35,347 nucleotides of DNA from a virus, in IMG/VR virus record IMGVR_UViG_3300006810_000160, positions 1-35,347 of that record. The stretch is one strand, 5' to 3'. How positions within the stretch are numbered: position 1 is the first letter of the stretch; every line of letters starts with the position of its first letter. This document shows, piece by piece, positions 1 through 35,347 of this stretch. A program made the translations under genes and the position numbers. Below the pieces are notes generated by a model that saw only the letters and a program-made list of their open reading frames with translations, was not told the DNA's origin and made no database searches.

Positions 1-112
1 CTCCTGATGCCATTTTTAAATTTTCATTCATCATTGACATCTCTTTATCAGAAGTTGCTCCTTTTCCTAAAAGAGTTTGCATCTGTTGCATTATTTCTTC
101 TTTACTAGCCAT
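1..112 (-). CDS. Small ORF after portal, cut by window start
   Basis: Starts at ATG 112 (minus), overlapping the portal stop by 8 bases in ATGGCTAG, and reads 37 codons to the window edge (begins MASKEEIMQQMQTLLG). It is Met/Lys/Glu-rich and probably helical. If the window is a circular map, the frame continues GTA CAA TGA from the right end, giving a 39-residue protein whose stop overlaps the ATG of the EF-hand gene at 35343. If the window is linear, this is the N-terminus of a longer protein, and a scaffolding protein would be expected here. Function unknown. Confidence 0.6.
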   Translation of the reverse strand, partial: MASKEEIMQQMQTLLGKGATSDKEMSMMNENLKMASG

Positions 113-2540
113 TTTTAATTATCTCCTGTTGCATTTTAATTTGATTTTTTTCTCGCTCTAGTTGTAGTTCTAATTCAAGTTTTTTAACTTTCGCTTCAAG
201 GTCTGCTGCAAGTTTTGCTTGTTCAATTTGCAGATCTTGCTTAGCTTCTGCTTCGTTGATTGCAAGTTTTTGTTGAGCTTTGGCTTGATCTGCTTGAATC
301 TGTGCTTGTGTCCTTGCTTGAAGTGCTTGTGCTTCAAGTGCTGCGAGTTGTTGTGCATATTGTAATGGATTCTGTTGTTGCTGCTGCTGTGCTAATGCAG
401 CCAATGGTTTAATTGCAGCCATCTGAGGAGATTGTGCTACAACCTCTGCTGCTCTCTGACTTATTTGCATGTCAAGTTCTGGACTTATATTCTCAAACTT
501 AAATTTAGGATCAAGCAGATTTGGCAATGGTGCTAATGAAACTCCTATACTTGCCTGCATTCTCTGGCGATATAATAATGCTATATGCTCAGCAACGTGT
601 GCAATTAATATTGGTTGCATAGCTTTTGCTCCAGGATTCCCTGCAAGCGATGGGTCTGAAAGAAACTGTAAATGAACTGCGATATGAGATTCATGATCCT
701 GCTCAGGAAAAGCTCTTATTGGTTTACCATACATCGTGCTAAGGTTTTCATCTATTGGATCGAGTCTTGCTGCTTCTTCTGGAGCTTTTAATATCTCATC
801 AACATTATTTATTCTTATAGCTTCATACATTCTTTTGTATGCTTCATATTGATCATGTAGCTGAGGTGCTGCTTGGCTCATCTGTAATATTGCCTGAGCT
901 TGTGCGATTCTTTGTGCAGTGCTAAATATGTTCGGATCACTAACAGGAATAATGTCTATACGATCATCAAAGTCTGCAGCATATATTATTCCTGTTGCAC
1001 CAGCCATAGAGAAATTACCAGACTCAGGTAAGTAAATTGCATTTAATTTTGATAATAATTTAAACTCTTGACCTTGTGAATAATGCAATCTTTTGTGTAT
1101 AGCTGAAAATGATTTACTGCCTTGTTCAATTAAAGCAACAGTTGAGCCGACAGGTGCATTTGGATTTGCATCTCCGACATTTAGATCTGCAGTGCTTGCG
1201 AATCTGCGACCAGCATCAGCTATCGCATTCATTAAATTAAACAATGTACCACTTGGCTCTTTAAATGGTAAAGGCATTATTGCTTTATTTACATCGTCAA
1301 CTGTGGCATCAAGATCAGCAAACTCTCCAGGATTGATTTGCATATCGCCACCTGTAACTCTGCCTTTTAATTTAAATCCACCTTGCATATTTGCAAATGC
1401 AGCGGAATCTAACAATGCTCTAAGAGATCCAGTTGCAGCTTTACCTAGTCCACCAATCATATGGAAAAGTCCAAAACCATAAAAGCCAGTTCCAGGAAGA
1501 AATTTATAACTTACAAACCAATCTCTTCTTTTTTGTTGCTCATCTTCTTGCATCCAGTTTCTGCGGATACTTACAATCTTTTCAGAATCATAGTCTATTG
1601 TAACAACATAAGGCAAGGCAACTGCATTCTCATCATCGTCATCTATGTTATCTATTCCTTCAAACGAATCATAAACATGCATCTCTAATAAAGTCATAAC
1701 CTCATCAGAAGAGTCGCCATAAGGATCAACACCTTCAATCTCACTGCCTATATCTCCAGATGGATCAATATCATCTGATGAATATTTACTTGGTAGATAC
1801 CAACCTGCTTTTACATATTTGTTAAAATCATTTCTTGGTATTCTGATCAGATGTGTATATCTTGATGATGTATATAAATCTTTGCTCTCTGGTGATACAA
1901 TAAAGTCTTCTGCTTTTACAAACTGCGAACACTGTCTGTCTAAGTTTGCATCCCACCATACCTTTTTAAAAGTATGCCCAACCAAAGGCAACTGAAATAA
2001 CATTTGATCCAGATCAGGGAAATACTCAGGCATCTCTTGAGTGATCTGATAATTCATATAGTCTTTGACTCTTCTGGCTTGCTCTTCTAGTTCTTCATTT
2101 GGCTCGCCAACAATAACTGTTTTAACTGGACCACCTGATGGATATAATTCTGCTATTGCTCTTGCATTAAATTGAGTTGCTGCTTCAGCAATCATAGGAT
2201 GAACAACTGTGCTCAGACCTCTTGTTGCTCTTTGATTCTCTTCCTCTTGCTGACCACCTTCAGGATCTAATGTTTCAAGACCTTGTTTATATCTATGTTC
2301 CCATTCAGATCTTGCTTCTTTATCAGACTCATAACTACTGATCAGAGAGCCTGACTTTTCATCCAGCTCGTTCTTGCTAACTGACTCTGCTAGGTTTTCA
2401 TCAAAAGCAGTTTTATCTTCTTCTACAATATCAAGACTAGGATCACCAATAAGAACTTCATCGTCATTTATCTTCTCTATTTGGAAGTCGTCAGCAGGCA
2501 TACTTTCTGCGAATGGAATAACTGTTGGGGATTTAGCCAT
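105..2540 (-). CDS. Portal protein, P22-type long portal
   Basis: Forms the dodecameric ring at the capsid vertex through which DNA is packaged and ejected. The protein is 811 residues, in the size range of P22-type portals (P22 about 725). It has an acidic N-terminus, the stretch HPMIAEAATQFNARAIAELY near residue 115, and a long alpha/beta core. The last ~120 residues are Gln/Ala/Lys-rich continuous helix with a QQQQQQ run, which I read as the extended C-terminal barrel seen in P22 portals. It follows TerL with an 8-base start/stop overlap and is preceded by AAGGA. The call rests on family resemblance, size and position beside TerL. No capsid gene follows it before the window edge. Confidence 0.88.
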   Translation of the reverse strand: MAKSPTVIPFAESMPADDFQIEKINDDEVLIGDPSLDIVEEDKTAFDENLAESVSKNELDEKSGSLISSYESDKEARSEWEHRYKQGLETLDPEGGQQEEENQRATRGLSTVVHPMIAEAATQFNARAIAELYPSGGPVKTVIVGEPNEELEEQARRVKDYMNYQITQEMPEYFPDLDQMLFQLPLVGHTFKKVWWDANLDRQCSQFVKAEDFIVSPESKDLYTSSRYTHLIRIPRNDFNKYVKAGWYLPSKYSSDDIDPSGDIGSEIEGVDPYGDSSDEVMTLLEMHVYDSFEGIDNIDDDDENAVALPYVVTIDYDSEKIVSIRRNWMQEDEQQKRRDWFVSYKFLPGTGFYGFGLFHMIGGLGKAATGSLRALLDSAAFANMQGGFKLKGRVTGGDMQINPGEFADLDATVDDVNKAIMPLPFKEPSGTLFNLMNAIADAGRRFASTADLNVGDANPNAPVGSTVALIEQGSKSFSAIHKRLHYSQGQEFKLLSKLNAIYLPESGNFSMAGATGIIYAADFDDRIDIIPVSDPNIFSTAQRIAQAQAILQMSQAAPQLHDQYEAYKRMYEAIRINNVDEILKAPEEAARLDPIDENLSTMYGKPIRAFPEQDHESHIAVHLQFLSDPSLAGNPGAKAMQPILIAHVAEHIALLYRQRMQASIGVSLAPLPNLLDPKFKFENISPELDMQISQRAAEVVAQSPQMAAIKPLAALAQQQQQQNPLQYAQQLAALEAQALQARTQAQIQADQAKAQQKLAINEAEAKQDLQIEQAKLAADLEAKVKKLELELQLEREKNQIKMQQEIIKNG

Positions 2541-4038
2541 AGAATGTCATCCTTTTTTGAGGTTGCTCATTATCTTCATCATAATCAGTTGAATGTGTTA
2601 TAAACCAACCTTTTCTTAATCTTAACCATGCTTGTGTACATGTGTCAACTATATCATCATTGTCGCCTGCAGGAAATGCTGCACATATATCTATTAAATT
2701 TTTAGCCCATTTTTTGTCAGAAGGAAAGTAAATTCTTCCATCTTCTAATAATGCACTGCTCGCGTGAGCTCTTGCTTCCTTGTCTCTATCAGGATTATAA
2801 GCCAAAACTGGTACACCTGCCATGCGCAAATCTTGTAGCAAACTTTGACCAGAAGCTTTCTTTTCTATCAGAACTGCATCTGGTTGCCAATCATCATAAG
2901 ACTCCTGAGCAAGTTTTCTTAATTGAGGATATGTAACTCTATCATACCACATCTCAATAACAATAGCATTTACCTGCCCATCTTCTCTAAAGACTCCCCA
3001 TGTTGTTCTAGCAGAATAAGAACTTTTTTCTTTTGTAGAAAATGCAGTATCGTAACTTTGTATTACATATTCAATATGTGGCAGTTCTTCTTTCTCCCAT
3101 GGCACCCACCATTTGGATTTTAATATCCCACCACCTTTGGGCATTGGTCTCTGCTGCAATTGACCTGCACTTGCGTATGTCCCAAGACTCGTTTCAAGAG
3201 TCTCAAGAGTTTTCTCGTCCACTCTCTCTGGCCACAACAACTCACCTTCTTTCGTTCGAGGATCCCCAAATCCGAGAGTAGATCTTGTTGGTGTTGGATG
3301 TCCGACTTCATATCTTGCAGGTAAACATAGATGATCCCAAGCATTGTATTCATTCCCTAATATGTGGCCAGTGAGATCGTTCTCATGAACTCTCTGCATT
3401 ATAATAATAAAGGCACCAGTCTTTGGATCATTCAATCTAGTCTGCATCGCTTGATCCCACCAGTCAAGAACACCTTGTCTAACTGTGGAAGATTCTGCTT
3501 CTCTTACATTGTGAGGATCATCAATAACTATTATATCACCACCTTCACCAGTCAATGCTCCATCTACAGATGTTGCGATTCTCTGACCAGTTTTATCATT
3601 CTCGAATCTTTGCTTTTGATTCTGATCAGATGTAAGATTATACATATCTCCAAAATAAGTTTTGTACCATTGACTGTCAATCAGTCTTCTGCACTTTACT
3701 GAATCCCTGATAGAAAGTGAACCAGCATAACTCGCAAACAAAAATCTTTTTTCTGGCTGGATGGTCCAAGTCCACGCAGGTAATGCAACAGCAACACTAA
3801 TTGATTTCATATGCCTAGGAGGAATATTTATTATCAATCTTTTTATCTTGCCTTCAACAACAGCTTGAAGATGTTCACTGACAGCATCTATATGCCAGTT
3901 GTCATAGAAGTCTCGTCCTGGCTCAATCGCTTGCCATGAATTTCGAGTAAACTCCTTCAGCGATCTCTTCATCTTCTCTGCTCTCACTTGCGTCAATGAC
4001 AGAGTGTTCAAGAACTCGCTCAATGGTGGTGAGGTCAT
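2533..4038 (-). CDS. Terminase large subunit (TerL)
   Basis: ATP-driven DNA packaging motor with a headful or site-specific nuclease. The ATPase half shows the variant Walker A IPPRHMKS, Walker B as GGDIIVIDDPHN, and NWHIDAVSEHL upstream. The RNase H-like nuclease half shows acidic residues in QSYDTAF, VLIEKKASG and DDIVDTCTQAW. About 501 residues, normal for the family. Start choice: ATG 4038 has AGGA about 9 bases upstream, but this makes the gene overlap the TerS-like gene by 116 bases. ATG 3972 (MKRSLKEFTRNSW) would reduce the overlap to 50 bases and fits the usual TerL N-terminus (helix, then W..IEPG). The function is secure; the start is not. Confidence 0.93.
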   Translation of the reverse strand: MTSPPLSEFLNTLSLTQVRAEKMKRSLKEFTRNSWQAIEPGRDFYDNWHIDAVSEHLQAVVEGKIKRLIINIPPRHMKSISVAVALPAWTWTIQPEKRFLFASYAGSLSIRDSVKCRRLIDSQWYKTYFGDMYNLTSDQNQKQRFENDKTGQRIATSVDGALTGEGGDIIVIDDPHNVREAESSTVRQGVLDWWDQAMQTRLNDPKTGAFIIIMQRVHENDLTGHILGNEYNAWDHLCLPARYEVGHPTPTRSTLGFGDPRTKEGELLWPERVDEKTLETLETSLGTYASAGQLQQRPMPKGGGILKSKWWVPWEKEELPHIEYVIQSYDTAFSTKEKSSYSARTTWGVFREDGQVNAIVIEMWYDRVTYPQLRKLAQESYDDWQPDAVLIEKKASGQSLLQDLRMAGVPVLAYNPDRDKEARAHASSALLEDGRIYFPSDKKWAKNLIDICAAFPAGDNDDIVDTCTQAWLRLRKGWFITHSTDYDEDNEQPQKRMTFYG

Positions 4039-4450
4039 TATCACTTATCCTAGTTATATCTATTATCTTTTTTTCTTCAACTTGTGCTTTGATCTCTACT
4101 GCTTTCAAATCAGGAACACATTTACCAAGTAAAGTTTTTGCAGCCATAACTCTTAATTCAGGATCTGCAGAAATCTTACCAACAGTTGATAACTCGCCAC
4201 CATCATCTGAATAAACAGGAAAGATCTCTTTGCCTTGCATAACTTGCGCAAGGAATCCAACAGGATCTGCTTGTCCCATTATCCAGTTAATAGTTGTATG
4301 GTGATTCCATTTATATGGTCTTTCTCTTGCTGGCTTCTGATACTTCATTGGCTCAACTGATTTAAATTTGCCATTAAATTTCTCAGGTTGTATTGGTGGT
4401 CCATCTTTAACAGGTCTCTGCACCTGCACTTTCTTATTCTTTGTAGCCAT
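3923..4450 (-). CDS. Putative terminase small subunit
   Basis: 175 residues with a basic, proline-rich N-terminus and a central WNHHTTINWIMGQADPVGFL segment. DPELRVMAAKTLLGKCVPDL is followed by a Lys/Glu-rich stretch, a pattern I associate with proteins encoded just before TerL that act as small terminases (DNA recognition at packaging start). The acidic C-terminus overlaps the TerL reading frame. It is the first gene after the terminator at 4520-4552 and has AAAGGAATAAAAC before its ATG. No helix-turn-helix can be assigned by eye, so the name rests on position and this motif. Confidence 0.6.
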   Translation of the reverse strand: MATKNKKVQVQRPVKDGPPIQPEKFNGKFKSVEPMKYQKPARERPYKWNHHTTINWIMGQADPVGFLAQVMQGKEIFPVYSDDGGELSTVGKISADPELRVMAAKTLLGKCVPDLKAVEIKAQVEEKKIIDITRISDNDLTTIERVLEHSVIDASESREDEEIAEGVYSKFMASD

Positions 4451-4519
4451 GTTTTATTCCTTTAAACCTTATTTCCAGTGGTAAACTGATAAACTAACTG
4501 TCACAATTATTACTCTTTT

Positions 4520-4552
4520 TTAGAAAAAAGAAAAGCCAGAATTTATCTGGCT
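4520..4552 (-). terminator. Intrinsic terminator before the terminase genes
   Basis: On the minus strand a 7-bp perfect stem (AGCCAGA / TCTGGCT, loop of 5) is followed by TTTCTTTTTTC. It lies between the coiled-coil gene at 4612 and the TerS-like gene and is oriented to stop leftward transcription from the early minus genes. Confidence 0.8.
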
Positions 4553-4611
4553 GATCTCAATAGGGGAGGAAACAATAGAAAGATATCCTTTTCTGATCAG
4601 AAAAGATAGTT

Positions 4612-4791
4612 TTAATTATCGTAATGTTGCATAAATTTTAATTTAGCAGAGACAACATGAACAATCCTCAACATATTTTTAACAGAAGATAATTTTGCTT
4701 CGGACTTCTCCTCTGATAATTGATCCCTTAATCTGATCAACTCTTTGTTAAGACCCTCCACTTCGTCTTTAATTTCTTTTATCAAAACCAT
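4612..4791 (-). CDS. Small coiled-coil protein, unknown function
   Basis: I place the start at ATG 4791 because GGAGG lies 9 bases upstream. A longer frame to ATG 4839 has no ribosome-binding site and would begin almost on the terminator at 4853. The 59-residue product (MVLIKEIKDEVEGLNKEL...) is a charged heptad-type helix over residues 5-40, with no membrane segment or catalytic motif. It lies alone between two intrinsic terminators (4853-4875 upstream, 4520-4552 downstream), an unusual arrangement that suggests read-through expression or a weak local promoter. Function not recognised. Confidence 0.6.
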   Translation of the reverse strand: MVLIKEIKDEVEGLNKELIRLRDQLSEEKSEAKLSSVKNMLRIVHVVSAKLKFMQHYDN

Positions 4792-4852
4792 TTGTGCAGT
4801 CCTCCGAATCATATAATTGTAATAGCTTTCTTGTATCATCTACTAACCATAT

Positions 4853-4875
4853 AAAAAAGGGGAGCCATGCTCCCC
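4853..4875 (-). terminator. Strong intrinsic terminator after 191-residue gene
   Basis: A perfect 7-bp GC-rich stem, GGGGAGC / GCTCCCC, with loop ATG on the minus strand, is followed directly by TTTTTT. It begins 6 bases past the stop of the gene at 4881-5456 and ends the unit driven by the promoter at 5636-5664. This is the clearest terminator in the window. Confidence 0.9.
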
Positions 4876-4880
4876 AGTTA

Positions 4881-5456
4881 TTAGAAATTATAATCATGAA
4901 ATTTTAAAGGTTGTTCTCTTAAATAATGCCTGCCCATAATTGATTTATAAGAACCATCTTTTTGTAATCTTGCTCTGACTGAATTATTTGAACTATTGGA
5001 ATTGTAATTATATTCTTGCTTATCTTGGTCTACACAGTGAGCAGAAAAACCTCCAGGAATAAATTCTTTTGGCTTTACAGTCTGAACTGTATCCATCTGC
5101 CTGACCTCAATAGTCTTTGGAGAAATAACTCTTACAATCTCGCAAGGTTGAATATCAGTATACATATGATTGTTACAATATTTATAGTCAACATCTGTCA
5201 CATCTGAATAAACAATCACCTCATATCCTCTATCAGTAAGATATTTAAAACAAGGTAAAGTTTCGAAATCAAAATTAGTTCTGAACTCTTCAGCTTCATC
5301 ATATGAATAGAAGCTCATAGCCATTGACTTAGAGGGATTGAAGTTATAACGTGTGCCATTATTAACTAGAAAATTATCAACAGCATAATTTGAAACTTCA
5401 TTTGTTTCTGTATTCTTAATCTCAATAGTAACAGTAATAAAATATTTTTTAAGCAT
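4881..5456 (-). CDS. Conserved phage protein, unknown function
   Basis: 191 residues. The N-terminal half is beta-rich (KKYFITVTIEIKNTETNE). The C-terminal half has SPKTIEVRQMDTVQTVKP, FIPGGFSAHCVDQDKQEY and ends LKFHDYNF. That C-terminal arrangement (TIEV, a PGGF.AH segment, an aromatic terminal tail) is one I have seen in unrelated phage proteins of unknown role. It is the second gene of a two-gene leftward unit. Its ATG lies within the end of the 52-residue gene (8-base overlap) and is preceded by GAGAAAGGAAAA. Its early-type promoter and terminator set it apart from the structural genes, so a host-interaction or regulatory role is plausible but unproven. Confidence 0.75.
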   Translation of the reverse strand: MLKKYFITVTIEIKNTETNEVSNYAVDNFLVNNGTRYNFNPSKSMAMSFYSYDEAEEFRTNFDFETLPCFKYLTDRGYEVIVYSDVTDVDYKYCNNHMYTDIQPCEIVRVISPKTIEVRQMDTVQTVKPKEFIPGGFSAHCVDQDKQEYNYNSNSSNNSVRARLQKDGSYKSIMGRHYLREQPLKFHDYNF

Positions 5457-8293: not shown

Positions 8294-8384
8294 TAGTCTG
8301 CTTAATCCAGACTAACAGTGAGCCACTCCCCCAAGAGTTAAGTTTTTTTGGGGTTTAGTGGGCTTAACTCTTACAGTGGCTCAC
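8294..8384 (+). promoter_or_regulatory. Structured leader upstream of the primase gene
   Basis: Three elements. A 7-bp hairpin TAGTCTG/CAGACTA (8294-8314). An outer 10-bp perfect stem GTGAGCCACT (8318-8327) / AGTGGCTCAC (8375-8384). An inner 10-bp perfect stem AAGAGTTAAG (8333-8342) / CTTAACTCTT (8363-8372). The internal-loop CCCCC (8328-8332) can pair with GGGG (8350-8353) in the apical loop, an H-type pseudoknot geometry. The outer right arm is followed by GTCTTTTC and then the ribosome-binding site AGAAAGGAAA, so folding could affect termination or translation of the primase gene. Confidence 0.7.
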
Positions 8385-8405
8385 GTCTTTTCAGAAAGGA
8401 AATAT

Positions 8406-12857: not shown

Positions 12858-13008
12858 ACTAGATAGTAATGAATTGAGATTAATTCTTAGTGTTTTAGAT
12901 TCTTGTTCTTACCCAATAGAACCAACCAGAGAACCAGCGACAACTACTCATGCTCTGGCTGTAAGAGTAACAAGAAAGATTAAAAAAATTTTAAAGGAAC
13001 TAAAATGA
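12847..13008 (+). CDS. Hypothetical small protein (53 aa)
   Basis: ATG 12847 overlaps the previous gene by 11 bases, and its TGA overlaps the next ATG (ATGA). MTTKLDSNELRLILSVLDSC is followed by a Thr/Pro-rich loop and a very basic C-terminal helix (RVTRKIKKILKELK) that could bind nucleic acid. Its position in an unbroken chain of overlapping genes is the main evidence that it is translated. Confidence 0.6.
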   Translation: MTTKLDSNELRLILSVLDSCSYPIEPTREPATTTHALAVRVTRKIKKILKELK

Positions 13009-17272: not shown

Positions 17273-17421
17273 TGACTTCCAGCGAAATAGATAATGAGAT
17301 AGAGAAGACAATCAAAATATGGGAGTCAAGTTTTACAGTGTCGCCACTTGATCAACTAGCAAAATTTCAAATAAAAAGCGATATTATTAGAATGATTATG
17401 AAAGTGAGGGAGGAAAGTTGA
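17272..17421 (+). CDS. Small helical protein (49 aa) before polymerase
   Basis: ATG 17272 overlaps the exonuclease stop (TAATG), and its TGA overlaps the TTG start of the polymerase. The product MTSSEIDNEIEKTIKIWESS... is acidic then basic, wholly helical, ending VREES. Its place directly between proofreader and polymerase, with overlaps on both sides, suggests an accessory subunit (theta-like in position only); no similarity is recognised. Confidence 0.6.
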   Translation: MTSSEIDNEIEKTIKIWESSFTVSPLDQLAKFQIKSDIIRMIMKVREES

Positions 17422-24107: not shown

Positions 24108-24860
24108 TTATTTCGCTATGCTTCTTAAACTTTCCATAACAGAATCAATACTAGGTTCTTTGCCATTAGGATTTAAAATACATCTAAATTTCCTTACACA
24201 ACCAATACTCATATCTTGGAATGACAACTCAAATGTTTTGTTAGCACCTTGATATATACAAGCAACTTTGTCTTTATATGTTTTTTGTTTTTTCAATCTG
24301 CATAATGTAAGTTTAGGTGGTTGTATTATGCCTTGATTAATTTTTTGTTGCCTTGTGTAATCTTTAGGTTTGTATTTATAACTGTCTGCATAAGATTTAA
24401 ATGCAAGCACTACACATATTCCTAATACAGCTATAACACAAAATATTATACCCATAGTTTGCAAAGTATCTATTATTTCTTTTTGTTGTTGTCTTTTTTC
24501 AACTCTTTTCAATCTGCTTGCTTCTTTCGCTTCGCTAATTCTATTGGCTCTTTCTGCAATTATCTCATCCCAAGTAGTGGGTCCAAATCTTAAATTTACT
24601 AATTGTTTTAATTCGTTTCGTTGCTCTTCTAATAATTTCATATTTATAAAATCATTAGCACTATTCTCAACAGACCCAAATTGTTCAGCAATAGACATGC
24701 CTTTGCCTTTGCTTTTATTCATTTGTTTTTCACCTAAAAAGAAGCCATCTATCTGTTTAGCAATACCAGAAATATCATTTACAGTATCAATATTGCTTTT
24801 TATGAATGCTACGGATTTCTGAACTAAGGCGATTCCAGTAAGGATTTCTGCAACGACCAT
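24108..24860 (-). CDS. Membrane-anchored late protein, unknown
   Basis: 250 residues. It has helical segments, a charged region with coiled-coil character (residues ~75-128) and one hydrophobic helix at 134-156 (GIIFCVIAVLGICVVLAF). A Cys-rich C-terminal domain of ~90 residues follows (TLCRLKKQKTYKDKVACIYQ, GCVRKFRC), probably disulfide-linked if outside. It is the last gene of the late block. The placement with ejection-type virion proteins suggests a virion-associated or ejection-channel role; lysis regulation is the alternative. No family recognised. Confidence 0.65.
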   Translation of the reverse strand: MVVAEILTGIALVQKSVAFIKSNIDTVNDISGIAKQIDGFFLGEKQMNKSKGKGMSIAEQFGSVENSANDFINMKLLEEQRNELKQLVNLRFGPTTWDEIIAERANRISEAKEASRLKRVEKRQQQKEIIDTLQTMGIIFCVIAVLGICVVLAFKSYADSYKYKPKDYTRQQKINQGIIQPPKLTLCRLKKQKTYKDKVACIYQGANKTFELSFQDMSIGCVRKFRCILNPNGKEPSIDSVMESLRSIAK

Positions 24861-24864
24861 AGCA

Positions 24865-27144
24865 TTACCTTACAGCTTCTAATATCTTATTTATATCCTT
24901 ACCAGATATACTTTCAACCAGTGGTTGTATGGCTGATGGATCTATTTCTTCTGTCCCAATTAACTCTTCTCTTACTGGTGCAGATAGAGCTTGTATTTCT
25001 GATTCAATAAAAAGTGGCTGTCTTGCTCTGGTAATATACTGCTTCACCATATCTTTTGCTTGATTTATATTTGATATAGTTTGTACAGTTTCTATTCCTT
25101 CTCTAGCTAGTGGTACAGCTTTAAGATAGTTTAAAACACCAGTCCTAGCCATAGCACTCAGAACAGTATAGCTTGTCCCTGAAGGATTAAGTTTTATCTC
25201 TGCCCATAATGTTGGCATAACATCATTTCTAAATTTTGATATTTTATTAAGTTCATTTTTAGTAAATAACATATTTATAAGATCTTTGTTTTTCTTAAAA
25301 ACCTCATTATAATTATTCACAATGTTAGTTCTTGTTATTCCTGATTTACCTTTACCAGCAAATGCTTTCTCTAAAACTGCATCTTTGACTAATGCTGTTA
25401 TCTCAGAAACTTTCTCTGGTGGTAAATTATCTTTAAATCTTTTTAATACACTAGCCATAACTGGAGATGGATTAAATTTAGCATGACCAAAAAAAGAACT
25501 TACTACTGAATCTGCTTCTAATCCTTGGCTTGTAAGTTTCTTTAGAATACCATTAACTGATTTTTGAGCAATATCACCAGATGTTCCTTTACCAGTAAGA
25601 CCTATATATTGTCTATACATATCTTTTGAATTCTGTAATATTTTTATTACATTTTCATTGCCTTCAATAAAACCTTTTTCAACACCATTAAAAACAAAAT
25701 TATCAAGCTCACCTTTTAACTTGCTTAATAGTAGTGCTTCTGGAGATCCTGGAGTTGCAGTTCTTGCTGCTCTATTTAATTCTTTCTGATATGCTGCAAT
25801 TTTTTTAAATGGTTGATCAGAACTTATTTTAGAAAGCTCATTGTTAATATAACTTATCTCTCTTTTCAGAATAGGCATATCATCTAGACTTCTAAATGAT
25901 CCATCAAACTCATCATTTATAATTTTCTTAAGATTGCTAACCATATTCTTGGTGCCATCTACAGTAACAATAGGTTGATTCATTGCTCCTTTTACAAACT
26001 CGTATCCTTCACCAGCTTCTTTTTTTAACTTACTAGCTTCTTTTGTAACTATACCTTTTATCTCTCCAGCAGCTTCTGTAGAAACTAATTCTGAATCAAC
26101 ATCAGCCATTTTACCAGAGCCAAACTCTTTTTGTAATTCTTTAGCATCGTTCCTTATAGCAGTTAGCTGAGCTTCATCAAATCCTGATACTATACCTTTG
26201 GCAGATGGATCTGTGCTTGGTGCATTACGAACAACATCTTCTGCTTCTAACTTTGAAGTGGTTTGGCTGGATATTAATCCTTTTTTTACATCAGGTGGAG
26301 AAGAAGTTCTTTGTCCTTGTGTAAGAGGATATTTAGAAGTTTGTATTGTTTTTTTAGCGAACTCAGGAACTTCCTTGCCTAATACTTCAGCAGTTTTTCT
26401 TGTTGCAAGTTTTCCAGCTTGAATTGGAGCTCTTAACAGTGGTGGTGTAATTACATCAAGACCAGCACCTAATGTTCCCATCTTTGCTGCGTCCATAATT
26501 CTATCACTATAAGTCCTTTGGTCTGTTGAAGTTGTCTTAGGAGTTAAAGTTGCCTCAATACCTTGACCTGCTGCTTCTGTTGCAGTGTATGCTGGAATTC
26601 CAGATAATAATTTTCCTGCTACAGTTTTTGCTCCAGAAGTTAATTTTGTTGCTGGTAAATACTTTATAACTTCACCAACTAATGTTCCTGTGTCCTGCAT
26701 ACTAATTCCTGGCTTGTTTATATAATATCTTTCGCCATTCCATACAATCATAGGATTCTTAAATTTATCTGTAAAGACTCCTCCGAATCTTTCATCACCT
26801 TTAAATGAGTCTGCTATTATTTCAGCTTTGCCAAAATCATCTCTCGCAAACATTAATTTTATATTAGGAACTAAAGACTCAAAGAATCCTACATCTTCTA
26901 TCGCAGTTGATTCTTTCGCATCAGGAAATTCAATAAGTGCATCCTCTCCAGTTGCTGCTTTGTATAGTTGTCCTGGAATCTCAGAAGCAGTATCAATTAT
27001 AGACGATACATTCTCGGAAACAGAAGCACCAGTATCAAAAACTGGCTCTTTACCATCTTCAAACTGATCGTCTATTTTATCATCATCTTCTTGTTTCTTT
27101 GTAGGATCTATTGCTCCTGTAAGATTTTTTAAACTAATTCCCAT
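24865..27144 (-). CDS. Large internal virion / DNA ejection-type protein
   Basis: 759 residues. It is the longest late gene after portal. Acidic N-terminus (EDDDKIDDQFEDGKEPVFDT), a small soluble domain with GERYYINKPGISMQDTG, then repeated Gly/Ala-rich amphipathic stretches (GKLLSGIPAYTATEAAGQGI) and long helical parts. The layout resembles ejection proteins of P22/T7-like phages (large, helical, membrane-active). It is adjacent to another probable ejection protein with a 1-base gap, so they are co-produced. The exact homologue is not recognised. Confidence 0.6.
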   Translation of the reverse strand: MGISLKNLTGAIDPTKKQEDDDKIDDQFEDGKEPVFDTGASVSENVSSIIDTASEIPGQLYKAATGEDALIEFPDAKESTAIEDVGFFESLVPNIKLMFARDDFGKAEIIADSFKGDERFGGVFTDKFKNPMIVWNGERYYINKPGISMQDTGTLVGEVIKYLPATKLTSGAKTVAGKLLSGIPAYTATEAAGQGIEATLTPKTTSTDQRTYSDRIMDAAKMGTLGAGLDVITPPLLRAPIQAGKLATRKTAEVLGKEVPEFAKKTIQTSKYPLTQGQRTSSPPDVKKGLISSQTTSKLEAEDVVRNAPSTDPSAKGIVSGFDEAQLTAIRNDAKELQKEFGSGKMADVDSELVSTEAAGEIKGIVTKEASKLKKEAGEGYEFVKGAMNQPIVTVDGTKNMVSNLKKIINDEFDGSFRSLDDMPILKREISYINNELSKISSDQPFKKIAAYQKELNRAARTATPGSPEALLLSKLKGELDNFVFNGVEKGFIEGNENVIKILQNSKDMYRQYIGLTGKGTSGDIAQKSVNGILKKLTSQGLEADSVVSSFFGHAKFNPSPVMASVLKRFKDNLPPEKVSEITALVKDAVLEKAFAGKGKSGITRTNIVNNYNEVFKKNKDLINMLFTKNELNKISKFRNDVMPTLWAEIKLNPSGTSYTVLSAMARTGVLNYLKAVPLAREGIETVQTISNINQAKDMVKQYITRARQPLFIESEIQALSAPVREELIGTEEIDPSAIQPLVESISGKDINKILEAVR

Positions 27145-27145
27145 T

Positions 27146-28444
27146 TTATAAACCTTTAACTATGTATGGTCCAGCATCTGGAACTATCTTTTGACCTTTT
27201 GCGTCTGAGTTCCTGAAAACAGAACCTTTTGGTAGAGCTTTCCAATAATCTTCAAATGCTAATGAGAAGTCTGAATCTCCAAAATCATCTTCTTCTTTAC
27301 TATATACATCGATCATCTTCCCATCTTCGTCTTTTTCAAAAACTTTAAATTTATCAAATATTCCTATATCAGCTTTTTCTATTTGATCATTTATGTATGC
27401 TTTAGAATAATTTTGAGGACTTGTTAATAACTCTGTTTCTAATTTAGTTAATTTCATAGAGTTTTCAGTCATCTTACTCAATGAATATAAATTTATATAG
27501 TTTGCAAATTTACTGTTACCCAAGTCAAGTATTGCTTGCTGGTATGCTTTAAATTCCATATCAGAGGTTGATCCTGAACCAGCAGGTCTCATCTGTGGGG
27601 CAAGTTTGAAAGATATTGACCTTAAGAATTCTTGGTCCTGTAAATCTTCATCTTTGAATCCAAATATACTTTTTAAGAATTGTTTTGCAGGTAAGAGAGC
27701 ACCTTCAATACCACCAGTCTTTACATTAGGATCTAATAAAACATTCATGGCTGTTTTCAAATTAGGTAAGAATGTTGTCATCTTATTTATATAATCTTTT
27801 TCTGTTTTTGCTATTTCCTGAAGTTTTTTAGTTTTATAAACTGCATAATCTGTTTTTTCAGAACCTTTTATCTGCGATATATTAGCATCAAAAATAATTC
27901 CACCTCTAGAAGAAAAATTTATTTCTGCAGGTTTACCAGAGATAATTAAAGGAGATCCAATTAAGTTTGTATCTTTTGTAGATATTTGTTCAACTAATCT
28001 TTTAAATGTTGATGCATTTTCTGGTAAACCTTTATTAATTAAATATTGTTTAGCATCAGCTTCACTCATGTAACTTAATGCATCTCCAGCACCCATGCTC
28101 TTGACAGTTTGAACTTTTGGTTTCAATGCTGTAACGAGACTAGCACCTAATGATGCTCTAGATTTATCGTCTGCTCTTTCTAATTCTCTTTCTTTCATTA
28201 AATATGCAACTGGCTGTTGTGCTGCTGCACCTGCTGCACCTAATGCTGTGGCTCCTGGCTTAGATGCTTCTGCTGCCATATTAGAGAAATATAAAAATGA
28301 TAATAGTGCAGGATCTATTCCTTCTCTTTTAGGAATAAATTGCTCTGCTAAACCTTTTAGAGCACCTGCGTCTAATTGATTGAGTTGGCTAGGAGTTGTG
28401 CCTGCTGCACCAATAGTAAGATTATTATTAGTAATTGCCACCAT
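27146..28444 (-). CDS. Putative internal virion / ejection protein
   Basis: 432 residues. Ala/Gly-rich N-terminus (TIGAAGTTPSQLNQLDAGAL; ATALGAAGAAAQQPVAYLMK), helical middle, then LAPQMRPAGSGSTSDMEFKA: the RPAGSGSTSD segment is one I associate with ejection-type proteins of podoviruses. An acidic C-terminus follows. It lies between the repeat protein and the 759-residue protein, 1 base from each. The HK97 capsid fold is not suggested by its helical composition. Confidence 0.6.
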   Translation of the reverse strand: MVAITNNNLTIGAAGTTPSQLNQLDAGALKGLAEQFIPKREGIDPALLSFLYFSNMAAEASKPGATALGAAGAAAQQPVAYLMKERELERADDKSRASLGASLVTALKPKVQTVKSMGAGDALSYMSEADAKQYLINKGLPENASTFKRLVEQISTKDTNLIGSPLIISGKPAEINFSSRGGIIFDANISQIKGSEKTDYAVYKTKKLQEIAKTEKDYINKMTTFLPNLKTAMNVLLDPNVKTGGIEGALLPAKQFLKSIFGFKDEDLQDQEFLRSISFKLAPQMRPAGSGSTSDMEFKAYQQAILDLGNSKFANYINLYSLSKMTENSMKLTKLETELLTSPQNYSKAYINDQIEKADIGIFDKFKVFEKDEDGKMIDVYSKEEDDFGDSDFSLAFEDYWKALPKGSVFRNSDAKGQKIVPDAGPYIVKGL

Positions 28445-28445
28445 A

Positions 28446-29651
28446 TTACCTTCCTCTATTCATATAATAAGCACTGGCCAATGCACCTAGTCCTCCAAGA
28501 GTTTGACCATAAACACTTGGTGATTGTATAAATTGTTGACCTTGTGACAGACTTATATTTCTTGTATCATATGGAACACCTTGTAAAGCACCCAATGCAA
28601 AATTTAATTGCGAGTATGGATATTCCCTTTGCTCTACATAATCAGCATATGCTAAGTCAAGTGCTTGCTGGTCTAATGCTCTTCTTGCTTGACCTGCTGT
28701 AAATAATCCTGATGCAGCTTGATCCTGAAGACCTTGGGCAAGAGGTGCAAAGCTCTGTAATGTTTCTGCTCTTCTTAATCTTGATGCTTCATCAGTTTCA
28801 AATCCTGTTCTTGCTGCTTCATTTGTTGCAAATCTAGCTTGTCTATCTTGCTCATATTGACCACGCATCATATTTTCAGCATCGAATCTTCTTTGAGTGT
28901 CTGTATCAAATTGACCTCTCATAAGATTTTCTGCACCAAATCTTGCCTGCCTATCTCTTTCTGCTGCTGCTCTATCAGCTTCAAACTGACCTGCTGCAAA
29001 ACTTAATCCTTCTCTGCTAGCTTGAGCTCTTAAATCCCCTGCTGCTCTAGCACCTTCCCCTGCAGTAAGACCTTCTTGTATTCCTAATCTTGATCCGCCA
29101 AAAGCTCCTGATCTTGCAGCAGTTGCTCTATTTTGCATATTAGCTAATTCTGTTTGTCTTCTTATTTCATCTACTGCTGCATCTTGAGAGCCTTGATATA
29201 TATCTAAAAATGGCTGAGCTTGTTCCATAGTAAACTGTTGACTTGGATCCCCTATTAATTCTTGCCTAGATGCACCTGAATATTGACCAGTTAATTGATC
29301 TCTATTCAATCCATTGAAAGCACCTCCCATAAGTTCTGAAGATGACATCCTGTCATAACCTTGACCAAGCTGTTGTGCAGTTTCACTAGCCATATCCAAA
29401 TATGGTTTATAAACATCTTGTCCTTGAGATAATAAACTTGCTGCTCTCTGTTCTTCTGGTGATAATTTAGATCCGCCATAGCTTGCTATTCTTGGACCAC
29501 CATAAGCAGGATATGGAGAAGAAGTTAACTCTGCTGCTTCTTCAAATATTCTTTTACCACCTTCTGATACCCATCCTGGCAGTTGAGTTCCTGTTACAAC
29601 TTCGTCATATTTAGGAAGCGTGTCTACATTTGTATTACAGAAACCACCCAT
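28446..29651 (-). CDS. Helical-repeat virion protein
   Basis: 401 residues. A Pro/Gly-rich N-terminus with YPAYGGPRIASYGG, a Gly/Ser/Gln-rich middle, and from residue 223 a run of 18-residue Arg/Ala/Asp helical repeats beginning at F248, Y266 and F284 (FDTDTQRRFDAENMMRGQ type). The C-terminus is GGLGALASAYYMNRGR. Location in the late block implies a structural or ejection role. No recognised family. Confidence 0.62.
   Translation of the reverse strand: MGGFCNTNVDTLPKYDEVVTGTQLPGWVSEGGKRIFEEAAELTSSPYPAYGGPRIASYGGSKLSPEEQRAASLLSQGQDVYKPYLDMASETAQQLGQGYDRMSSSELMGGAFNGLNRDQLTGQYSGASRQELIGDPSQQFTMEQAQPFLDIYQGSQDAAVDEIRRQTELANMQNRATAARSGAFGGSRLGIQEGLTAGEGARAAGDLRAQASREGLSFAAGQFEADRAAAERDRQARFGAENLMRGQFDTDTQRRFDAENMMRGQYEQDRQARFATNEAARTGFETDEASRLRRAETLQSFAPLAQGLQDQAASGLFTAGQARRALDQQALDLAYADYVEQREYPYSQLNFALGALQGVPYDTRNISLSQGQQFIQSPSVYGQTLGGLGALASAYYMNRGR
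28752..28985 (-). repeat. 18-residue helical repeats in the 401-residue protein
   Basis: Residues 223-300 hold units starting F223 (25 residues), F248, Y266 and F284 (18 residues each), with a conserved aromatic, D at position 4 and RF/RL near position 8-9. Confidence 0.7.
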
Positions 29652-30091
29652 TATTTTTTCTCCACATAAACAGAACCAGCTTTAATTAATCCTAATCTTT
29701 CGTAAAATTTATCTTTACGAGAAAGATCTCCAGAATAAATATGACCCATCCTTAATTTCATTTTAGCTTTTTTGACAATTTTTATAAAGTCTTTTATTAA
29801 TATTAGTCCAGCTCTTGATTTTCTATGTAATGGAGAAACATAAAACCATAAATCAGAAACAAACAAATCTTCAGACCACCAGTCTGTTGTAGTTGTTCCT
29901 GCTATTGACCCTGTTATTTCATTCCCATTACAACTTACCAAAACCACTCCTTTGTGTATCACTTCGTTAATTTTATTCATTAACTTGTAATCATCTATAG
30001 TTGAAACTTCTAATTCTGTATTATTATGCATATCTTTAAGCATAACAAATATTGCAGAAATATCTGTCGCAACTGCTCGTCTTATGTGCAT
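29651..30091 (-). CDS. GNAT-family acetyltransferase
   Basis: 146 residues. MHIRRAVATDISAIFVMLKD matches the GNAT N-terminal strand-helix (IRrA...Di.ai..l). VSDLWFYVSPLHRKSRAGLILI is the acetyl-CoA-binding motif A region (V.P..R..G.G). FYERLGLIKAGSVYVEKK is motif B (FYe.lGF). Acetylates an amine of a small molecule or protein, target unknown. It is embedded in the structural block with one-base overlaps on both sides. Confidence 0.85.
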   Translation of the reverse strand: MHIRRAVATDISAIFVMLKDMHNNTELEVSTIDDYKLMNKINEVIHKGVVLVSCNGNEITGSIAGTTTTDWWSEDLFVSDLWFYVSPLHRKSRAGLILIKDFIKIVKKAKMKLRMGHIYSGDLSRKDKFYERLGLIKAGSVYVEKK

Positions 30092-30414
30092 TACATATTG
30101 CCCAATGCACCCATATCTCTTGGCATCATGTCGTCCTCGTTTTCCATATTGCCTTGATTTTCAACTGCAGAAATTAATTCTTGAAGCTCTGGTAAAAGTT
30201 TCATTAGAACTCCAGCAACTCTTGGAGTTATAGCTTCATCAAGTTGCCTTAACTCCTCTGGCTCCATTTCTGTTAATCTTGCCATTAATACTGCTTGTAT
30301 ATTTTCATCAGATGATAAAAGACTTTGCCTCGCTTCTTCAGGCATACCAGATTTTAAACTTACCTGATCTCCTGCAGGCATTCTTTCACCCATCATATCC
30401 ATTTCTTCAGCCAT
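30091..30414 (-). CDS. Acidic hypothetical late protein (107 aa)
   Basis: Met-rich acidic protein: MAEEMDMMGERMPAGDQVSL, a helical middle (MARLTEMEPEELRQLDEAIT, VLMKLLPELQELISAVENQG) and an acidic NMENEDDMMPRDMG tail. It could be a small chaperone-like or scaffold-like virion factor; composition is like short phage assembly proteins, but this is inference. Located between the Gly-zipper protein and the GNAT. Confidence 0.6.
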   Translation of the reverse strand: MAEEMDMMGERMPAGDQVSLKSGMPEEARQSLLSSDENIQAVLMARLTEMEPEELRQLDEAITPRVAGVLMKLLPELQELISAVENQGNMENEDDMMPRDMGALGNM

Positions 30415-30416
30415 AA

Positions 30417-31775
30417 TTAAATCTCCTTCTTTTTATATAATATAGACCAATCTGTTTGTTTGCAAAATGCACCTACAGCCCAACAGATAGGCTCTAGGAT
30501 TTTCCTGTACAACTTACCTAAATAATCTGGCTTATTTCTTTCACCATATATATAAGCTATTTCATTTGCTCTGTGCCCAGCAACGTGAGACCAGAAATTA
30601 ATTAATCTGCCTTTACGCATCTGTTTAACCATGAATACAGCCCATATATGGTACCCAAGAACATGCTGTGGTGTTAAGTGATCTTTAGTAAATTTGTAGT
30701 CTAATATGACTTGTTTACGATCCATAATACCTTGTCTCATAAGTTCGTTACATATAACTCTTCCACCTAAAGCACCACCAATAACACTACCGACAAATCC
30801 ACCTATTGGACCACCAAATGCTGTTCCTATTGCTTGACCAAGTGCAGCACCTCCTGCGGACTTTGCAGCTTCAGTAGGTTTTTGACCTGAAGCAAGACCA
30901 ACTATAAATCCAATACCAGCAGTTCCTGCAGAGGATGCCCAGTTTGCTTGACCTGCTGTTGAACTAAAACTTAACTTGTCTAAAGATTTATCTAAATAAC
31001 TAACAGGAGCAGTTGTGCTTGAAACTACACCACCAGATAAATTTGCTCCTTTAGCATTAGCAACACCATCTTTTACTGTTACACCTGCATTTGCTAATTC
31101 TTTATCACTATATACTTTAAACCCATCTTTTGTTACTTTGCCTGATGAATCTTTAAGAATCATTCCTTTGTCAGATAGTTTATTGTGAAGATCTAAATTT
31201 CCTGTTACATTCGCAGTTGATTTATTAGCTATATCTGGAAGAGCACTATAACCTTTTGGAATATCATACATGCTCGGATCAAGTAATTTAGATTTAGCAG
31301 AAGCTGATACTTGATATGGTGTTGAACTAAAAGTTAATGCATCAGCTGCACCACTCAATGCTCTTTTTCCTGCACCACCAGTTAAATATTGTCCAGGATT
31401 AAGTATGCTTTCTCCAATCTTAACTCCAAGAGGTTGGACTAATGATGTAGCAGTTTCACCAATTATTTCTCCGAATGTAGGAAACCCAGGAGGTTGTCCT
31501 TGTTTATCTATTAAATCTTTATATCTTCTAGCAAGATCATCATCCTCAGGATTCTCTCCAGGAATATAAGTTCTCTCTCCAGTTTTTATAGTTCTGACCC
31601 ATTCAAAAACTGGCATTGCAGTAGTACCATATATATCCTGTAAATTTGTTAAATCCATTTCTGGTGCAAATGATCTGTTCTGGTAAACATTATAAACAAC
31701 AGGTTTATTTGCTTCTTCATCATTTTTGATATTTAATATATCTCCAAATGCTCCATAAATTGGTTCTTCTGCCAT
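30417..31775 (-). CDS. Gly-zipper virion protein (ejection-type)
   Basis: 452 residues. N-terminal soluble part (PVVYNVYQNRSFAPEMDLTN), a central Ser/Ala/Lys-rich region, then a Gly-zipper membrane segment around residues 285-345 (AIGTAFGGPIGGFVGSVIGG). The C-terminal ~105 residues contain ICNELMRQGIMDRKQVILDY, GYHIWAVFMVKQMRKG and FWSHVAGHRANEIAY. That Gly-zipper plus C-terminal 'NELxRQG...GYxxWA' arrangement is common in marine podovirus virion proteins (from memory). It fits a pore or ejection role. Confidence 0.68.
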   Translation of the reverse strand: MAEEPIYGAFGDILNIKNDEEANKPVVYNVYQNRSFAPEMDLTNLQDIYGTTAMPVFEWVRTIKTGERTYIPGENPEDDDLARRYKDLIDKQGQPPGFPTFGEIIGETATSLVQPLGVKIGESILNPGQYLTGGAGKRALSGAADALTFSSTPYQVSASAKSKLLDPSMYDIPKGYSALPDIANKSTANVTGNLDLHNKLSDKGMILKDSSGKVTKDGFKVYSDKELANAGVTVKDGVANAKGANLSGGVVSSTTAPVSYLDKSLDKLSFSSTAGQANWASSAGTAGIGFIVGLASGQKPTEAAKSAGGAALGQAIGTAFGGPIGGFVGSVIGGALGGRVICNELMRQGIMDRKQVILDYKFTKDHLTPQHVLGYHIWAVFMVKQMRKGRLINFWSHVAGHRANEIAYIYGERNKPDYLGKLYRKILEPICWAVGAFCKQTDWSILYKKKEI

Positions 31776-31785
31776 ATTTTACTCC

Positions 31786-32106
31786 TTAACTAATTTCTAA
31801 ATAACTAGCAACTACATGAAGTCTATTTGCTGTTGCTGCTGTTACTTTTAATATTTCTGTTTCTTGCACAACTAATGGTTGTGTTAATAATTCTATTGTA
31901 GTATTTGCTGCAACTGCTGTTACTTTAAATAAACTAAACACATCACTTCCATTTGTTATTGTTGCTGTTATTGTGTCTGCACTACCAGAATCATTAGATA
32001 CTAAAATAGATTTAAATATTCCAGTGACTGCACTTGCTGCTGTATAAAGTGTTGTTGCACTTGTTGCTGTTAAATCTAGTTTTGCATTTTTATAATTATT
32101 AGCCAT
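31786..32106 (-). CDS. Small beta-sandwich virion protein
   Basis: 106 residues, almost all Thr/Ala/Val/Ser beta strands: LDLTATSATTLYTAASAVTG, FKSILVSNDSGSADTITATI, LLTQPLVVQETEILKVTAAT. The pattern suggests a jelly-roll or Ig-like decoration or tail-knob protein. It overlaps the 60-residue gene by 8 bases. It is too small to be a major capsid protein. Confidence 0.65.
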   Translation of the reverse strand: MANNYKNAKLDLTATSATTLYTAASAVTGIFKSILVSNDSGSADTITATITNGSDVFSLFKVTAVAANTTIELLTQPLVVQETEILKVTAATANRLHVVASYLEIS

Positions 32107-32281
32107 TAAACCAACTTACTGCCTCAGAACTCTCTTGTGTAATTTTTTTAGATGCATCCTCAGCTAAGTTTGCAACTCTTATCTGGTTCTCAATCATATT
32201 TACTAAATTATTAGCCCAAATCAAACTGTAATTATTAGGTGGCTGTGGGAGTCGTAAAGCTCTATTTAATGTAGCACTCAT
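32099..32281 (-). CDS. Small late protein (60 aa)
   Basis: MSATLNRALRLPQPPNNYSL then NNLVNMIENQIRVANLAEDA and an end in SWFNG. Helical, soluble, with a proline-rich start. Overlaps both neighbours. It may be a small tail-linked factor. Not recognised. Confidence 0.6.
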   Translation of the reverse strand: MSATLNRALRLPQPPNNYSLIWANNLVNMIENQIRVANLAEDASKKITQESSEAVSWFNG

Positions 32282-34182
32282 CTTAGACCATCCTGTCTAG
32301 TGTTTATTCTAAAATCACCAAGTTGCCAATCATCTTCTGTTCCACTGCTCTCTAGCTTCATAGCCATCTGACGACCTCTAGCTCTTGTACTTAACTTTGT
32401 AGTCTCGCTTGTAATTGTAAATGGACCTTTTGTTATGTCGGAATCACTAGGATATTTCCTAGTTTTTATGGTAAGAGAAAGACTTGTATCAGATGTGGCT
32501 GTAAGATCAGGAATAACTTTATCAACTAAAAATAATGCATCACCACCTTGTGATATTTCTAAAGAAGAACTTTCAATAAAACTTGACATAGCAGACCCAT
32601 TATCATTATTTCCTGTTTCATGATTATATAATATACCAGAACTGTCAAAAGCAAAAGGAACTTTCCTGACTCCAAATGCATCCGACCATACTGTTCTTGT
32701 TAAAGATCCTATAGACCAAGCAGCATCCTGATAATTAAATGTAACATAGCTGTCTGGTTCTGGATTTGCAGTTCCTGCACTATTTGCATTGCTTACATAA
32801 AACCAAGTAACTTCATTAAATGCTTTGTTGTGTGCTGCAAACGATTTATCTATATAATCTTTTTGCATTCTTTCAAATACAAAATGTTGTACTGAACATG
32901 GTAACTCTTTTACAACTCCGTCATAGACAAAGAAATTTGATCTTCCCATCCAGAAAACTGTACTATCTACAGTCATCATAACATTCTTACCAGCTGATCC
33001 GCAGTTGGTTGCTAATAATCTAAAAGAAAATATAAAAGGAGGACCAACAAAAGTCATACCATATAATGCTTCATCAGTTGCTATTACAGTTTCATCTTTA
33101 GATGATGTTGCTGAAACTATTTTATTTCCTATCTCTAATCTTTGATCACCTGCACTATTTGTAACAGTTGGTGCCCATACAGCAAAATCCTCTTGGTCTG
33201 ACCATCTAACTTGCATTGGGTCTATATTACCACTTGATGATAAAGGATCAGTTCCTAATGCTAATACATGACGATCAGGAAATGATATTGTTGTTAAAGT
33301 TGTTGTTGTAGGTACACTTGTTGCTCCTGCTAAACTTGAAACTAAAACTGCTCTGTTAGGACTTGATGATGTATCATAATAATAAATAGCACCACCTCTT
33401 ACAGTTGCTATTAAGTCTTCACCCCATAAATTAAGTGACCATTGTGAGTTTGATAGTTTAACATCACTTGAATCTGTTGATCTTGGAGTACCCCATGTAC
33501 TGCCACCCCATGAACCAGTTCCCCAACCTAATGCTGGATCACCTGATTGTTGACCTAATCCTGCTGCTACACCAATCAAATACTTTATATCTATAGTTGT
33601 GCCACCACCAGCTGATACTGTGCTTGTTGCTGCTGATGATACAGTTATACTATAGCTATTAGCATTAATATATGTAATTTGGTAACCTTCACTTTGATTT
33701 AATGTATCAGCTGTTACCCCACCTGTTGCAGTTGCAGAATTTATAACTACAAAGTCACCATCAGTTGCACCATGACTATTATCAGTTATTACAACTGTTG
33801 TACTACCATCTGTTGTAGCAAGTGGATTTGTTAAATTAGATGTGGTTTTTCTTAATGGTGTAATGTCATAAAGTGCATTGTTTTCTAATATATATAAATG
33901 ATTATGTGTGCCTATTGCAATTCTATCTTCACCATCAGTTATGGCTCTCCACAAAACCATAGTTCTTGCTATACCTACTAATGATGTTTCTGTAGATGTA
34001 ATGTTTCCTGCTGCATCTACTCTTGTATATGCTTCTTTTAACCACCCACCAATTTTTTCTGCATATCCATTTTTAAATCTAATAAGATTACCATCAATCC
34101 AATATGGACCATTCTTACCAGCAGAGTATTTTGTAATATCTTTTACAATTCCTGGCTTTATTTGCATGAGTTGATATGGCAT
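32278..34182 (-). CDS. P22 gp10-like packaged-DNA stabilisation / tail protein
   Basis: 634 residues, beta-rich. It opens MPYQLMQIKPGIVKDITKYS with GPYWIDGNLIRFKNGYAEKI, the typical start of the phage stabilisation family (P22 gp10). Repeated beta-propeller-like strands follow (DRIAIGTHNHLYILENN, DSTVFWMGRSNFFVYDG), plus an Asp/Ser/Thr-rich insertion (AATGG to GGTTIDI) and WSDQEDFAVW. In P22 this protein closes the portal vertex and keeps DNA in. It ends by overlapping the 60-residue gene and starts right after lysozyme. Confidence 0.82.
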   Translation of the reverse strand: MPYQLMQIKPGIVKDITKYSAGKNGPYWIDGNLIRFKNGYAEKIGGWLKEAYTRVDAAGNITSTETSLVGIARTMVLWRAITDGEDRIAIGTHNHLYILENNALYDITPLRKTTSNLTNPLATTDGSTTVVITDNSHGATDGDFVVINSATATGGVTADTLNQSEGYQITYINANSYSITVSSAATSTVSAGGGTTIDIKYLIGVAAGLGQQSGDPALGWGTGSWGGSTWGTPRSTDSSDVKLSNSQWSLNLWGEDLIATVRGGAIYYYDTSSSPNRAVLVSSLAGATSVPTTTTLTTISFPDRHVLALGTDPLSSSGNIDPMQVRWSDQEDFAVWAPTVTNSAGDQRLEIGNKIVSATSSKDETVIATDEALYGMTFVGPPFIFSFRLLATNCGSAGKNVMMTVDSTVFWMGRSNFFVYDGVVKELPCSVQHFVFERMQKDYIDKSFAAHNKAFNEVTWFYVSNANSAGTANPEPDSYVTFNYQDAAWSIGSLTRTVWSDAFGVRKVPFAFDSSGILYNHETGNNDNGSAMSSFIESSSLEISQGGDALFLVDKVIPDLTATSDTSLSLTIKTRKYPSDSDITKGPFTITSETTKLSTRARGRQMAMKLESSGTEDDWQLGDFRINTRQDGLR

Positions 34183-34625
34183 TAGGAGATATTCCTCATT
34201 CTTTCACAAAGCCTTCCTGCTCTGTTCGGCACTTGCTTGTACCATTTACTATCTTCCATCTGTATTGATGCCTCTTGCCAATCACCTTTGTTAACAGCTT
34301 GTCGCATGCGAACAAAATTAGTTAATCTTGGTCTGCCTAAATTGAACATCATATTTGCTATAATTAATTGAACTTCATCAGGCAATGTATAAAAATTATC
34401 ATATAATATAATACAATCTTCTATAACCTTTTCAATATCATTTACAAAACACTCTGTCACTCTCTGATCAGAAACTGGTGTTCCTACATCCAAGTTATTC
34501 TCTGGGTCAATAGATTTAACAAGATGACCAATACCAAATGTTTTATATCCAAGGTGATCTAAATATATTTCAGCTTTACATCCTTCGTCTTCTGTAAGCT
34601 CTTTTTTTAAAATCTCTATATCCAT
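34182..34625 (-). CDS. Lysozyme, T4-type (GH24)
   Basis: Muramidase that degrades peptidoglycan at the end of infection. 147 residues. The T4 catalytic triad spacing is kept: E14 in TEDEG, D23 in YLDHLG, T29 in KTFGIGH (T4: E11, D20, T26). NMMFNLG and PNRAGRLCERM also match the family. No signal peptide, so release depends on the holin encoded upstream (TAATG overlap). Confidence 0.93.
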   Translation of the reverse strand: MDIEILKKELTEDEGCKAEIYLDHLGYKTFGIGHLVKSIDPENNLDVGTPVSDQRVTECFVNDIEKVIEDCIILYDNFYTLPDEVQLIIANMMFNLGRPRLTNFVRMRQAVNKGDWQEASIQMEDSKWYKQVPNRAGRLCERMRNIS

Positions 34626-35020
34626 TATTTCGTTAAACCTTTTTGTTTCTCATAAGTTCTTAATCCACCTAAACCAAGCATTCCCATAAGCACAGTCATT
34701 AACGAACCCATATCAAATGTAGGAAGCTCTGGAATTACAACACCTAGATAAGCACATAAAAATATAGTTATAGGTGCTAATACAAAATGCCAACACAAAG
34801 CAACACCACAAGTCCAACCAATAAATGGTCGCCATCCTGCAACAAATATAGATTTATGTGTGGCTTCTGCTTTGTTTATTTCTAGCTGACCTTTTGCAAG
34901 CTCTTGAGCATGACTCTCTGCCATAGTAGCAACTTCATGTGCCAACTTATTCTTCATGTCTTTGTCTTCTATAAACTTACCTAGAAGATTTGATACTGGT
35001 CCAATTAATGCAGTCAACAT
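34625..35020 (-). CDS. Holin, 3-TM GTA-type
   Basis: 131 residues from ATG 35020 (AAGGA upstream; a GTG at 35023 is also in frame). The N-terminal helix (LTALIGPVSNLLGKFIEDKD) is amphipathic. Then a WRPFIGW motif and two hydrophobic helices (CGVALCWHFVLAPITIFLCA; MTVLMGMLGLGG) as in the holins of alphaproteobacterial gene-transfer agents. Forms lethal membrane holes that let the lysozyme out. It lies immediately before lysozyme and after the EF-hand protein, so this is a three-gene lysis cassette. Confidence 0.85.
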   Translation of the reverse strand: MLTALIGPVSNLLGKFIEDKDMKNKLAHEVATMAESHAQELAKGQLEINKAEATHKSIFVAGWRPFIGWTCGVALCWHFVLAPITIFLCAYLGVVIPELPTFDMGSLMTVLMGMLGLGGLRTYEKQKGLTK

Positions 35021-35343
35021 CACTTAACATCCTTTTTTGCCATCTGATTAAAACCAATAAATGAGCCGATAACACCCATATTACTAAGTACCCATATTTC
35101 AGCTATGCCAGATAAATGATCAATTCTTTCCATAGGTAGTAATGGTGTCATTAATACAACTATAAATAATGTAACAGATAATGCACTAAACCAAACTAAA
35201 TATCTTTGTTGGTCTTCTTTTTTGTCTCTGTTTTCTAAAAGAATAATTTTTTCTTTCATTTCAAACTCTTTGTCTGAAACTACACCATCACCATTAGTAT
35301 CTAATTTAGCAAACTTTGAGTTTTTTTCTAATTTTTTTGTCAT
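35020..35343 (-). CDS. EF-hand protein with two membrane helices
   Basis: 107 residues. The loop DTNGDGVVSDKE (D15, N17, D19, V21, S23, E26) is a canonical calcium-binding EF-hand. Two hydrophobic segments follow at about 48-68 and 82-98. It precedes holin with a TGATG junction. The ribosome-binding site is only complete (GGAG) if the window is joined to its other end. Possible regulator of holin (antiholin/pinholin-like) responding to calcium; inference only. Confidence 0.75.
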   Translation of the reverse strand: MTKKLEKNSKFAKLDTNGDGVVSDKEFEMKEKIILLENRDKKEDQQRYLVWFSALSVTLFIVVLMTPLLPMERIDHLSGIAEIWVLSNMGVIGSFIGFNQMAKKDVK

Positions 35344-35347
35344 TGTA

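Follow-up and report, generated by a model that had tools for sequence, protein, structure and literature searches.

The genomes of the Roseobacter phages CRP-901 and CRP-902, reported to be complete, measure 53.0 and 52.0 kb, and a bifunctional DNA primase-polymerase is the defining feature of the CRP-901-type genus (PMC10149686). In both phages the capsid gene (gp57 in CRP-902) is located between the genes encoding the portal and a head/packaging structural protein. The Pelagibacter phages HTVC023P and HTVC027P are more distant from the virus described here and have larger genomes (57.6-60.9 kb), encoding a homologous portal (41-42%) and a capsid with 57% identity to that of CRP-902.

The whole stretch of DNA analysed here, hereafter the window, is IMG/VR record IMGVR_UViG_3300006810_000160, a linear fragment of 35,347 bases, to which CRP-901/902 are the closest annotated phages. 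The likeness to CRP-902 extends to TerL (77%) and the portal (73%; 73-74% across CRP-901/902), which are adjacent and in the same order, and several late genes are common to both. Two gene clusters are encoded on the minus strand, one at the left end of the window (TerS, TerL and portal, from 4450 to 105) and one at the right end (EF-hand-like, holin, endolysin, head/packaging structural protein and other late genes, from 35343 to 24108):

1..112, minus strand: 5' portion of a gene that runs off the contig, beginning MASKEEIMQQMQTLLGKGATSDKEMSMMNENLKMASG; 202 aa long in G018, a near-identical contig
105..2540, minus strand: portal protein, 811 aa (PHROG 1216, E 3e-33)
2533..4044, minus strand: terminase large subunit, TerL (PHROG 38, E 1e-94)
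3923..4450, minus strand: probable terminase small subunit, TerS (judged by its position and by a 52-aa match, 52% identical, to the TerS region of CRP-902)
24108..32281, minus strand: rest of the late block, without a capsid gene; collinear with the relative G001 and partly with CRP-902
28446-29651, minus strand: protein matching a DNA-ejection family
32278..34182, minus strand: head/packaging virion structural protein (PHROG 3287, E 8.5e-69; 'constituent protein' in the CRP-902 annotation)
34182..34625, minus strand: endolysin, a phage lysozyme (PHROG 7; Pfam Phage_lysozyme)
34625..35023, minus strand: holin (PHROG 3427, E 8e-33)
35020..35347, minus strand: EF-hand-like gene (35020-35343; Pfam EF-hand_5, E 2e-4, under its cut-off) and the last codons of a cut upstream gene

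A first-pass annotation had the portal and EF-hand genes at the left and right ends, respectively, and described a window with TerL, portal, structural and ejection-type proteins but no capsid; family searches and tblastn bore out this description. No capsid match was obtained in family searches of the window late proteins, some of which gave absent or weak family matches, and a tblastn search of the window with the capsid protein of G018, described below, retrieved nothing at E<=1.

The sequence beyond the window edges was recovered from other contigs. G018 (IMGVR_UViG_3300034375_006542, 37,000 bases) belongs to the same virus population as the window and encodes an identical (100%) portal; its positions 1-20264 matched window 20264-1 at 99.94%, with 13 mismatches and 0 gaps. 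It then passes window base 1 and continues for 15,815 bases before reaching the sequence of the right end of the window (G018 36080-36540 versus window 35347-34887, 89.6%). The left edge was also crossed by three contigs from other samples (L163, L165 and L167), which were 99.8-99.9% identical to the window and tracked G018 at 99.87-99.97%. To the right of the missing interval G018 and the window belong to different strains (89.6% at first, about 80% further on), and this edge was crossed by contig L095, the last 1,638 bases of which matched window 35347-33710 at 99.94% (one mismatch) and the first 3,212 bases of which matched the end of the G018 interval at 99.25%. The exact interval of the window is therefore one assembled from overlapping contigs of several samples, no single contig or read following it at 99% throughout. 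Addition of the 15,815-base interval to the window gives a total of about 51.2 kb, resembling the genome size of CRP-901/902.

These sequence comparisons make it almost certain that an ordinary marine tailed phage, with a genome of approximately 51 kb, is incompletely represented by the window, a linear contig lacking a 15,815-base stretch of late genes that includes the capsid gene. This stretch sits between the portal and the EF-hand, holin and lysozyme genes, and holds major capsid, putative scaffold-like, GroES and tail genes, in the following order (coordinates on G018 unless otherwise given):

17725-20157: portal, followed by the 202-aa gene truncated in the window, a gene of 363 aa and small genes
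L256 7024-7431: GroES co-chaperonin (PHROG 3188), just ahead of the genes for the scaffold-like protein and capsid
After GroES: charged protein of 297 aa, putatively scaffold-like, in the usual scaffold position
Between the scaffold-like gene and the capsid gene: proteins of 160 and 184 aa
27926-28828: major capsid protein, 300 aa, 7.8 kb downstream of the portal
After the capsid gene: more virion and tail genes, including a putative fibre-like protein of 705 aa
Preceding the EF-hand gene: small genes

In CRP-902, too, a GroES co-chaperonin (gp61) is encoded just ahead of the scaffold-like and capsid genes.

The capsid protein of G018 matched PHROG 371, 'major head protein' (E 1.4e-22), and the Pfam capsid families Phage_capsid_4 and Mu-like gpT (PF25209, 50.8 bits against a cut-off of 27; PF10124, 37.5 bits against 20.1), and was 84% identical to CRP-902 gp57. 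No PDB relative was detected by sequence among solved structures, and an AlphaFold2 model built from a shallow alignment was unusable for recognising an HK97 fold (mean pLDDT 33). Such a capsid was present in all 18 long IMG/VR relatives tested, although 12 of these had been retrieved with the capsid itself and count only for its co-occurrence with the portal, and in 18 of 18 annotated phages having a portal of the window type. A comparison of the portal-to-lysis interval with relatives had been proposed as a check, and the capsid gene was found there in both G018 and G001. In the latter (50,215 bases) the genes on either flank of the gap keep the order of the window, whilst some 26 kb lying between the portal and EF-hand genes, including the capsid gene, has no window counterpart. 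End repeats were not detected in five long relatives tested, hence their exact lengths are uncertain.

Both window ends were found to cut through genes when compared with near-identical or close contigs. At the left, an ORF beginning at 112 on the minus strand (MASKEEI...) runs off window base 1, and is missed by an ORF list with a minimum of 60 aa. The full gene, which follows the portal (L256 1653-2261), contains repeated units of the GATSD/GATSE type, three in G018 and two in L002, such that copy number differs between strains. At the right, the closing TACAATG holds the final codons (..TA CAA TGA) of a truncated upstream gene, which shares an ATGA overlap with the start of the EF-hand gene. 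Joined end to end, the two edges would read CAGGAG-TACA-ATG, resembling a ribosome site, and had been taken to meet as a seam. There is no terminal direct repeat in the 35,347-base record by an end-repeat test, and a 26-nt exact search for the joined sequence gave 0 hits among the IMG/VR contigs searched. In L095 a T precedes TACAATG, and CAGGAG is part of the truncated left-end gene; on sequence grounds, therefore, the seamless appearance of the join, with its false Shine-Dalgarno site, is a coincidence.

The positions of these ends suggest why the contig was cut. At the left, L002 (G) and G018/L163 (C) part ways one base past the window, the preceding 62 bases being identical between L002 and the window, and the base following the right end is T in G018, A in L088 and C in L084. 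Short-read assemblers stop at such branch points. Assembly was probably halted at both ends where co-occurring strains are the same up to that position and differ just beyond it, and the repeated GATSD-E units of the left-end gene would make assembly harder.

Of the explanations offered in the first-pass annotation, that of a window lacking capsid genes, with ends that only seem to join, was upheld, though the gap spanned by the edge-crossing contigs is 15.8 kb rather than the 2-4 kb envisaged. The other two invoked a shell made from an unrecognised protein or a capsid supplied by another phage, and both are contradicted by G018, in which a standard capsid gene lies 7.8 kb past a portal identical to that of the window; a new capsid protein and helper dependence were rejected on this basis. 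A complete circular genome of 35.3 kb, with a shell built from an unrecognised late protein, would account for the empty capsid searches and for the late proteins with weak or no family matches. However, the lack of a terminal repeat and of the seam in any contig searched, the continuation of both cut genes in contigs of 99-100% identity, the standard capsid gene in the same virus and the counterparts of the window late genes in G001, which also carries a capsid gene, render it vanishingly improbable. The family searches proposed for uncovering a hidden capsid among the late proteins came back empty, as the location of the capsid gene outside the window would lead one to expect.

The window might alternatively derive from a real deletion of 15.8 kb, or be a capsid-less satellite borrowing capsids from a full-length relative, and the existence of a near-identical full-length relative means that a helper would be available. 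This is very unlikely, given that no deletion junction was found among the IMG/VR contigs searched, that no end repeat is present, and that each end interrupts a gene at a position where strains diverge, which fits assembly breaks. The portal, terminase, lysis and replication genes of the window are, moreover, all intact, unlike those of known capsid-stealing satellites. Whereas a helper-dependent satellite would be a complete element without a capsid gene, this record is incomplete and the contigs crossing its edges lead to one. There is likewise only a very slight chance that the source sample held a minority deletion form missing exactly the 15.8-kb capsid block and packaged by the full-length phage. 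Under the incomplete-contig reading, the absence of a capsid is true of the window and not of the virus, an artefact rather than a real feature. A phage that seems to lack a capsid can thus turn out to be a truncated contig with ends that appear, by chance, to fit together, and claims of absent genes in metagenomic viral records call for a check of near-identical contigs past both ends.

The recovered interval places the virus, by its structural genes, in a widespread group of marine phages with a known capsid. With TerL and portal in the window and the capsid downstream of the portal on G018, its structural module is that of Roseobacter phages CRP-901/902 and pelagiphages HTVC023P/027P. The gp11 primase-polymerase that marks the CRP-901-type genus is not found in the window, no ORF of which matched the CRP-902 gp11 region (3120-5414) at E<=1e-4. 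The replication module of the window instead encodes a DNA polymerase III alpha-like protein (937 aa; 17418-20231, plus strand) and an AEP-TOTE-type primase-like protein (8358-9941, plus strand). As the structural module is of the CRP-901/902 type, whereas those phages use a bifunctional primase-polymerase, module exchange is suggested.

Other plus-strand genes of the window encode a protein of 310 aa (13005-13937) with an N-terminal dinucleotide-binding-like motif (MIIYGAGLAGLLSG) and no Pfam match at E<=0.01, and a ThyX-type thymidylate synthase (14346-15083; Pfam Thy1, E 3e-42). A GNAT acetyltransferase is encoded within the structural block (29651-30091, minus strand), and is retained in CRP-902 (51%) and G001 (66%).
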